From assembly GCA_003695675.1 (NCBI GenBank), contig RFIA01000289.1:1-53435 (forward strand): 53,435 nt of DNA, given 5' to 3'. Source of the DNA: Chloroflexota bacterium. Lineage in GTDB: Bacteria > Chloroflexota > Anaerolineae > Aggregatilineales > Phototrophicaceae. The position numbers and the translations under genes are program-made. Positions 5,693 to 16,890 of the stretch are shown in pieces (position 1 is the first letter of the stretch; each line of letters starts with the position of its first letter). The notes beneath the pieces are model-generated. The model made no database searches and was not told the DNA's origin. It saw only the letters and a list, made by a program, of their open reading frames with translations.

Positions 5693-6199
5693 TTATTCGC
5701 CTTTATTTTCAGATAATTCTTGCCAGACGGCTTTCAACTCGCGATAGGTGTTGTCCAATGTGTCGGGGATGACTCGTGTCTCGCCGACGACGGACATGAA
5801 ATTGGCATCGCCCGGCCATCGCGGGACGATGTGAAAGTGATAATGTTCCTCGATGCCCGCGCCCGCCGCCGCGCCGATATTCGCGCCGATATTAAAAGCC
5901 GGGGGATTGTACAATTTGCGCAAGGCGGCTAATGCCCGGTTGACCATCAGCATCATATCGGTCAGCGCGTCGAGTGGCAGGTCTTCTTGTGACTGCACAT
6001 GTTCATAAGGCACAATCATCAGATGCCCATTGTTGTATGGATAACGGTTGAGCGTGACGTAAACATACGCCGACCGCGCAACGACGTGTTCAATATCGTC
6101 GGATTCAGGATCGCGTTTCTTACAAAATACGCAGCCTTCAGTCGGCTGCTTCTCGCCTTTGATATATGCCATACGCCACGGTGTCCATAAATGTTGCAT
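5693..6199 (-). CDS. HIT family nucleotide hydrolase/transferase (Ap4A phosphorylase-like)
   Basis: 168 residues. The histidine triad is His119-Tyr-His121-Phe-His123 followed by Ile-Val-Pro-Arg, the active site of the HIT family, where the middle His attacks the alpha phosphate. A CxxC pair at Cys23 and Cys26 near the N-terminus, with HTWxPWRM-like sequence (LWTPWRMAYI), matches the bacterial Ap4A phosphorylase/HIT branch in which these cysteines bind zinc. It probably cleaves dinucleoside polyphosphates or AMP conjugates in the cytosol. It is the first gene of a two-gene operon with the thiolase and is driven by a clear promoter at 6239-6268. A MITE-like insertion lies just upstream of that promoter. 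Confidence 0.9.
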   Translation of the reverse strand: MQHLWTPWRMAYIKGEKQPTEGCVFCKKRDPESDDIEHVVARSAYVYVTLNRYPYNNGHLMIVPYEHVQSQEDLPLDALTDMMLMVNRALAALRKLYNPPAFNIGANIGAAAGAGIEEHYHFHIVPRWPGDANFMSVVGETRVIPDTLDNTYRELKAVWQELSENKGE

Positions 6200-6238: not shown

Positions 6239-6268
6239 ATTATACGGCGCATTTCGCGACTCTCGCAA
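6239..6268 (-). promoter_or_regulatory. Sigma-70-type promoter of the HIT-thiolase operon
   Basis: In minus-strand sense there is a -35 box TTGCGA (6263-6268), an 18-nt spacer and a perfect -10 TATAAT (6239-6244), 40 bp before the HIT start codon. The MITE target duplication begins 8 bp upstream of the -35 box. Confidence 0.7.
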
Positions 6269-6275
6269 GCAGACA

Positions 6276-6284
6276 ATAGTCCAC
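6276..6284. repeat. Left 9-bp target-site duplication of the MITE-like element
   Basis: ATAGTCCAC abuts the left inverted repeat and is repeated exactly at 6418-6426, immediately outside the right inverted repeat. The flanking bases beyond the 9 bp differ, so the duplication is exactly 9 bp. Confidence 0.85.
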
Positions 6285-6417
6285 GGGCGCATTTCACTTC
6301 AGTGCAAAAGCATCCGATTAATGAAGCGGGCAGAGCACGCTCTGCCCCCAACGCGTAGTTTTTCGTTGGGGTTTAGCTTGCTAAACCCGGTTAAGCGCAC
6401 GAACTTGAAATGCACCC
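6285..6417. mobile_element. 133-bp MITE-like non-autonomous transposon
   Basis: The ends are imperfect inverted repeats of 21 bp (6285-6305 and 6397-6417) that agree at 16 of 21 positions. The left end begins GGGCGCATTTCA and the right end, read inward, GGGTGCATTTCA. Exact 9-bp direct repeats flank the element. The interior codes for nothing recognisable but holds three palindromes in a row (6328-6347, 6346-6371, 6369-6388). The element fills the gap between the divergent HIT and birA promoters. Families that make 9-bp duplications include IS1, IS50 and the IS903 group. No transposase is present in the window, so the parent element is unknown. Confidence 0.85.
6328..6388. repeat. Three consecutive hairpins with shared arms inside the MITE
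   Basis: GGGCAGAG/CTCTGCCC (6328-6347, 4-nt loop), CCCCAACG/CGTTGGGG (6346-6371) and GGGTTTAGC/GCTAAACCC (6369-6388, 2-nt loop). Hairpin 2 shares 2 bp with hairpin 1 and 3 bp with hairpin 3, so full pairing of neighbours is mutually exclusive. In RNA read through the element this would fold strongly in either direction. Confidence 0.8.
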
Positions 6418-6426
6418 ATAGTCCAC
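6418..6426. repeat. Right 9-bp target-site duplication of the MITE-like element
   Basis: ATAGTCCAC, identical to 6276-6284. It directly abuts the -35 box of the birA promoter. Confidence 0.85.
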
Positions 6427-6454
6427 TCGACAAGTGTGTGATGTGCGGTACACT
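6427..6454 (+). promoter_or_regulatory. Sigma-70-type promoter of birA
   Basis: -35 TCGACA (6427-6432), a 16-nt spacer and -10 TACACT (6449-6454), about 34 bp before the GTG start. The same GGTACACT -10 context occurs in the nusA promoter at 38196-38203, which supports it. Confidence 0.6.
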
Positions 6455-6488: not shown

Positions 6489-7250
6489 GTGTCATTAGAC
6501 GCTGAGGCCGTGATGAAACAACTCGCACCGCGCCCGGTCAAATACTTCGCGCAGGTCGATACCACCAACGATATTGCCATGCAATGGTTGCGCGATGGGG
6601 CACCGACCGGTGCGGTCGTGATTGCCGACGAACAACGCAAGGGCAAAGGACGACACGGGCGGACATGGCAGACGCCGCCCGGCGTCGCGTTGGCGATGTC
6701 GGTTGTGCTGCACCCACCCGCGCAATGGCTTTCACAGACGACGATGCTCAGCGCGGTTGCCGTCGCCGAATTGTGTGAGCATGTCGCCGCGCCGGATGTG
6801 TCCATCAAGTGGCCGAATGATGTCTTGGTTGCGGGGCGTAAGGTGTGCGGTATCCTCTCCGAAGTGGCGTGGGAGGGCAATCGTTTGGTGGGCGTTGTGA
6901 CGGGTATCGGCGTCAATGTTAGAATTGACTTTAGCGGCAGTGAGTTGCAAGATACGGCCATCAGTCTTGAACACGCCGTCGGGCGTGTACTCAATCGCTT
7001 GGATTTGCTGGATTATTTGTTGGCGCGAATCGATCATTGGGCGGCACGGGTCGGGACGGATGTCTTATTTGAAGCGTGGCGGAGTCGTATGACGATATTC
7101 GGTCAATTGGTGCGCGTCGAGTCTGCAAACGAAGTCATCGCCGGGATTGCCGAGAAGGTCGAACCGGACGGCACATTGTATATCCGCAAAAATGATGGGA
7201 CATTGTTCCCCGCGCTTGCTGGTGATGTGTCGTTGCGGCAGGAGCGTTGA
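6489..7250 (+). CDS. birA: Biotin--[acetyl-CoA-carboxylase] ligase, monofunctional
   Basis: 253 residues from a GTG at 6489, chosen because AAAGGA lies 7 nt upstream; the frame is open further upstream only because it runs through the MITE. The enzyme activates biotin to biotinyl-AMP and attaches it to the lysine of biotin carboxyl carrier proteins. Visible motifs are the adenylate-binding loop GKGRHGRTW (about 52-60) and KWPND with catalytic Lys107, followed by the C-terminal domain. There is no N-terminal helix-turn-helix, so it should not act as the biotin-operon repressor seen in E. coli. It is followed after 6 bp by a membrane protein gene on the same strand. Confidence 0.92.
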   Translation: MSLDAEAVMKQLAPRPVKYFAQVDTTNDIAMQWLRDGAPTGAVVIADEQRKGKGRHGRTWQTPPGVALAMSVVLHPPAQWLSQTTMLSAVAVAELCEHVAAPDVSIKWPNDVLVAGRKVCGILSEVAWEGNRLVGVVTGIGVNVRIDFSGSELQDTAISLEHAVGRVLNRLDLLDYLLARIDHWAARVGTDVLFEAWRSRMTIFGQLVRVESANEVIAGIAEKVEPDGTLYIRKNDGTLFPALAGDVSLRQER

Positions 7251-16817: not shown

Positions 16818-16890
16818 AGCGGGTAACGGGACTCGAACCCGTGACACCTTGCTTGGGAAGCAAGCGCTCTACCAACTGAGCTACACCCGC
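16818..16890 (-). tRNA. tRNA-Gly, anticodon CCC
   Basis: 73 nt folding into a full cloverleaf. The acceptor stem is GCGGGTG with TACCCGC. The D arm reads GCTCAGTTGGTAGAGC. The anticodon stem CTTGC/GCAAG encloses the 7-nt loop TTCCCAA with anticodon CCC, and the T arm has GGTTCGAGTCC. The discriminator base is U, and the 3' CCA is not encoded, so it must be added by nucleotidyltransferase. It decodes GGG and has its own strong promoter and terminator, so it is a one-gene unit. Confidence 0.95.

Follow-up and report, generated by a model that had tools for sequence, protein, structure and literature searches.

ISKra4-family insertion sequences (ISs) duplicate 8-9 bp of their target according to ISfinder, and 9-bp duplications are made by several IS families. 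RUP, NEMIS, Bcr1 and Nezha descend from parent families other than ISKra4. All four have been named as bacterial MITEs (PMC3733652). Full-length ISs of the ISKra4 group land at a distance of about 16 bp upstream from sigma-A -35 boxes, and ISH6 and ISLre2 have been assigned to the same Mutator-like group as ISKra4 (Guerillot et al. 2014, PMC3942029). In A. variabilis and H. neapolitanus, longer palindromes have been described that contain REP dimers (Di Nocera et al. 2013, PMC3733652), so that the association of REP dimers with palindromes is of a known kind. A literature search on ISKra4 MITEs found no paper.

The 133-bp element described here resembles the ISKra4 ISs (p-MULT 4 group; PMC3942029) in its GGG ends, in duplications of 8-9 bp, in the related transposase that lies between the same ends in relatives, and in its insertion about 16 bp upstream of a sigma-A-type -35 box. 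It differs from them in being only 133 bp long and non-coding, in having a REP-like dimer as its interior, and in residing in a genome with no detectable transposase of the family. With the classic MITEs RUP, NEMIS, Bcr1 and Nezha it shares a short, non-coding, intergenic body with inverted ends, but its ends are different.

The element occupies positions 6285-6417 of the window, by which we mean the whole stretch of 53,435 nucleotides that was analysed (contig RFIA01000289.1 of a Chloroflexota bacterium). It stands between a HIT-family gene (5693-6199, minus strand) and a divergent birA-like gene for biotin--protein ligase (6489-7250, plus strand), and it is bordered directly on either side by the 9-bp sequence ATAGTCCAC (6276-6284 and 6418-6426). 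The left terminal inverted repeat, GGGCGCATTTCACTTCAGTGC (6285-6305, plus), and the right one, which reads inward as GGGTGCATTTCAAGTTCGTGC (6397-6417, minus), are equal at 16 of 21 positions; a GGGT variant of the left end is present in the second copy discussed below and in elements of another genome (G012). At 133 bp, the element is too short for a transposase gene. When the whole window was scanned for inverted ends (at least 14 of 21 matches, spacing 60-400) with an exact 9-bp direct repeat abutting them on both sides, no further such place was found, and the same scan of 20 shuffled windows returned 0 structures. The only Rfam match of the window is a tRNA gene at 16818-16890 (minus strand); an Rfam-type RNA identity for the element itself was tried and rejected, as the search gave no match to it.

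The assembly to which the window belongs (4.70 Mb, 421 contigs, 92% complete) has a second full copy at 5801-5936 of contig C396 (G000:C396:5801-5936). The two are 90% identical, but the C396 copy stands before a gene unrelated to HIT or birA and is flanked by a different 9-bp duplication, CGTAACATC as opposed to ATAGTCCAC. The ends GGGNGCATTTCANNT occur at these two genomic places only. The duplication of the window copy establishes transposition for that copy, and the existence of two copies at separate sites with different duplications establishes it for the element family. The preliminary description had read the same architecture (133 bp, 21-bp inverted ends with 16 identities, exact 9-bp repeats) as a complete MITE that arrived by transposition, and had looked to genomic copies with other 9-bp duplications for proof; the architecture is confirmed on the sequence, and the C396 copy bears out both the identification and the mode of arrival.

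At least 12 relatives have HIT and birA side by side in divergent orientation, which gives a view of the site without the element. Eight of the 12 have a spacer of 91-141 bp and the remaining four one of 240, 508, 547 and about 1000 bp, with some gene starts estimated from alignments; the window spacer is 289 bp, or 147 bp once the element and one duplication are subtracted. The MITE ends were found in the HIT/birA spacer of 0 of the 12 relatives. In three of them (L252, L258 and L259) the spacer reaches 508 to 1000 bp owing to sequence other than these MITEs. A HIT -10 (GATTATA on the plus strand) is visible by eye in the short spacers of most relatives, and the birA -10, TACACT here, resembles TACAAT in several of them, also by eye. 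A scan of the HIT/birA spacer for intrinsic terminators found none. As for an empty site with a single copy of the 9 bp, the comparison answers in part: most relatives' spacers are shorter and all 12 lack the ends, but when the nearest relatives' spacers were aligned base by base they proved too diverged for the 9-bp site to be placed.

These comparisons also bear on the suggestion that the sequence is conserved for a regulatory or RNA function, such as that of an attenuator or riboswitch before birA or HIT, and that its inverted ends are incidental. Such a region could well be intergenic and rich in hairpins, as the element is (z = -5.1 against shuffles when folded as DNA), yet Rfam gives no match at the element or close by, relatives lack it in their orthologous spacers, most of which are shorter, the second copy precedes an unrelated gene and has another duplication, and the ends recur across many genomes with 8-9-bp duplications. 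The preliminary description would have given up transposition for a single-copy sequence with a spacer conserved among relatives, and neither was found. We regard a regulatory origin as extremely improbable.

Of 154 genomes from the order, 23 have ends of the form GGGTGCATTTCA(NN)T(NN)GTGCA, and in the public collection inverted pairs of GGGTGCATTTCA-type ends at MITE spacing are common among the genomes of Anaerolineae and Bacteroidota. Among 170 such TIR pairs, drawn from many genomes, the exact duplications at their flanks were 8 bp long in 54 cases, 9 bp in 44 and 10 bp in three, with none of 5-7 bp or of 11 bp and longer; the 9 bp of both copies in the window genome falls within the 8-9 bp of ISKra4. 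Longer elements with the same type of end encode the matching enzyme. Two of these, of 1402 bp (L085, genome G028) and 1401 bp (L090, genome G151), are bounded by GGGTGCATTTCA-type ends, and L090 is flanked by the perfect 9-bp duplication TCGAGAAAG. The best NCBIfam match of their proteins is the ISKra4 transposase (E 1.9e-42 and 6.3e-55), followed by weaker matches to ISH6 and ISLre2, and the G028 transposase read whole scores 214.7 bits, above the curated cut-off of 205. With a profile search, 13 of 98 genomes from the taxonomic family gave ISKra4 transposases. In G117 an ISKra4 transposase (G117:C44) is followed, 70 bp beyond its C-terminus, by the end GGGTGCATTTCAAGTTCGTGCA, which matches the right end of the window element at 21 of 21 bases; 89-bp MITEs of the same genome bear this end too. 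Ends in common with transposase-encoding elements are thus found by way of L085/L362, L090 and G117:C44.

That several IS families make 9-bp duplications leaves room for a MITE of another such family (IS10/IS50 or IS1, for example), with the likeness to ISKra4 ends arising by chance. The 21-base identity to the end beside a transposase C-terminus in G117, the ISKra4-type transposases encoded by 1.4-kb elements with GGGTGCATTTCA ends and the agreement of the promoter offset with the ISKra4 group (see below) all speak against this, and we consider it very unlikely. The preliminary description, which knew no named family with these ends, was largely right in its interpretation; the ends and the transposases of relatives now supply the name ISKra4. 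It had also sought an autonomous element with the same ends, and relatives do harbor ISKra4-transposase elements of autonomous length, although no intact transposase bounded by exactly these ends was found among them: the L085/L362 transposase is interrupted by an in-frame stop, the one of L090 is spread over two frames, and in G117 the contigs end within the copies. Its statement that the window contains no transposase extends, for the ISKra4 family, to the window's own assembly, in which neither protein nor profile searches detected one (92% complete), so that we infer the donor transposase. The shared ends, the transposases of relatives and the lack of one in the window genome thus point to a MITE of ISKra4 descent, with a helper that is either absent or not in the assembly.

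Two further features of the ISKra4-type elements were observed. In four genomes (L090, minus strand, about 2480-2560; L363; L364; L365) the transposase is in two overlapping frames, split at a conserved TTTTCCCCCTNGATGA, and could be rejoined there by a +1 shift on CCC-C; a programmed frameshift is likely, and a -1 shift has been reported for the ISMich2 group (PMC3942029). At 1480-1510 of L085, two ISKra4-type ends facing away from each other stand back to back with exactly 9 bp (TGTGTAATA) between them, as if one element had inserted beside the duplication of another.

The position of the element relative to promoters follows the pattern described for the ISKra4 group. At 135 distinct junctions from the order, which are not mutually independent as there are several per genome, promoter-like sequences (at least 9 of 12 matches to the consensus) were found 15, 16, 17 and 18 bp outside the end in 4, 12, 9 and 5 cases; these 30 of 135 junctions compare with 10 for the other 37 offsets combined and with 0.12 per offset in shuffles. 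Among elements with a verified duplication, 20 of 35 have a promoter at 15-18 bp on one side and 0 on both, against 0-2 at control offsets. A like peak at 16-17 bp was seen in the public-collection set minus Microscillaceae, a set that overlaps the order set in part (G075 and G117 are in both). Microscillaceae elements have no promoter peak with either consensus tried, including the Bacteroidota promoter consensus, and those of G075 almost none. Statistics over many copies therefore support the view that distance to a promoter determines the target, which would lie about 16 bp upstream from the -35 box.

The window copy sits on this peak. The predicted sigma-70-like HIT promoter TTGCGA-18-TATAAT (6239-6268, minus strand; 10 of 12 matches) has its -35 exactly 16 bp outside the left end, while on the other side a predicted sigma-70-like birA promoter, TCGACA-16-TACACT (6427-6454, plus strand), begins directly after the duplication. 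The second copy has a weaker promoter match (8 of 12) at 17 bp. The ISKra4 habit of landing about 16 bases upstream of promoters explains why the element lies between the divergent HIT and birA genes. An ISKra4 MITE might also have come to this distance by coincidence, through random insertion into a short promoter-containing intergenic region: minus the element, this one measures only 147 bp and holds two promoters, so that one is always near. Yet the copies show a sharp offset peak at 15-18 bp instead of a spread over the spacer, the window copy is on that peak, and a coincidence seems unlikely. We conclude, with a probability of roughly 0.93, that the window element is a MITE that derives from an insertion sequence of the ISKra4 family, and thus from a prokaryotic Mutator-like DDE element, and that it reached this site by promoter-proximal targeting.

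A course of events consistent with this conclusion would begin with an ISKra4 transposase acting in trans, since lost or missing from the assembly, that recognised the ends and inserted the element close to a promoter, at a distance of about 16 bp upstream from its -35; in this case the promoter is the predicted one of HIT. Strands cut 9 bp apart would have given rise to the duplication of ATAGTCCAC; the predicted pre-insertion site reads ...GCAGACAATAGTCCACTCGACAAG... with a single ATAGTCCAC. In that site the back-to-back -35 boxes would have been 16 bp apart; they are now separated by 158 bp, with a hairpin-rich spacer between them. The two predicted promoters may thereby have been uncoupled with both core promoters intact, and at 158 bp they would no longer share upstream DNA. 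The REP-like hairpin dimer of the interior is the cargo of the MITE.

This interior is built like a REP dimer, from two 20-bp hairpins of opposite orientation. The first unit (6328-6353, plus) is the hairpin GGGCAGAGC-AC-GCTCTGCCC followed by the tail CCAACG, and the second (6364-6388, plus, in opposite orientation) is CGTTG followed by the hairpin GGGTTTAGC-TT-GCTAAACCC. In having two 20-bp GC-rich hairpins in opposite orientation and a short conserved tag, the dimer is like the GTAG/CGTC REP dimers (PMC3733652), but it differs from them in its tag, GTTG/CGTTG, and in that its carriers have target-site duplications. The tag of the window element (CGTTGGGG...) is thus GTTG, not GTAG; GTAG-tagged hairpins do occur inside related MITEs. 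ISKra4 MITEs of other genomes contain different hairpins; the tag GTWGGG/CCCWAC is present in 13 of 30 of their non-redundant interiors, where shuffling predicts 2.65, and its density of 8.5 per kb inside MITEs is about ten times the 0.87 of their flanks.

The hairpins are not confined to these ends. Allowing one mismatch, unit 2 is found at 58 places in the genome, and the interior module 6306-6394 (plus) is about 87% identical over 90 columns to the interior of inverted-repeat elements with other ends in the window genome. The module, or one unit of it, is in at least three further miniature inverted-repeat families there. Carriers of the module with ends GTAACTACTCAG... are complete in L003 and L004 and otherwise partial; those with ends TATTCACCTATCC... 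are L007, L009, L010, L011 and L013. Elements with ends GCTCTGTTGACATTTG... have a different arrangement, with one exact 26-bp hairpin unit in common and a CTAG duplication; this family has a complete 159-bp copy in L030 (145-315), its ends number about 42 genome-wide, and many of the assembly's contigs stop inside its elements. The hairpin half-unit (CACGCTCTGCCCCAA or AGCACGCTATGCCCCAAC) also forms tandem arrays (L014, 1-270; L005/L037, around 1430-1560), pointing to growth of REP-like units by slippage.

No REP-associated transposase with hairpins matching those of the window element was found in the genome. Its one clear Y1 (IS200-type) transposase, a 145-aa ORF (L218, 1211-1911), is flanked by hairpins (GCGCTGCGGGTTCAAACCCGCAGCTC) unlike those of the MITE, and these unrelated hairpins do not favour a Y1/RAYT transposase as the mover of the module. 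It is conceivable, if rather doubtful, that the MITE families of this genome are interchangeable carriers of one REP-dimer module, or a unit of it, which has entered at least four sets of ends and is itself a small mobile unit spreading by way of transposons; the ISKra4 ends would then be those that place it at a fixed distance upstream of promoters, so that promoters would repeatedly gain a hairpin spacer.

Precedents are known for each part of the window element, and the explanation of its position is well supported. The presence of one REP-like module inside several unrelated miniature elements of a single genome bears on how REP sequences spread. The promoter-upstream target preference of full ISKra4-group ISs also holds, over many copies in Chloroflexota, for tiny derivatives that lack a transposase; these MITEs therefore sit where expression could change without gene breakage.
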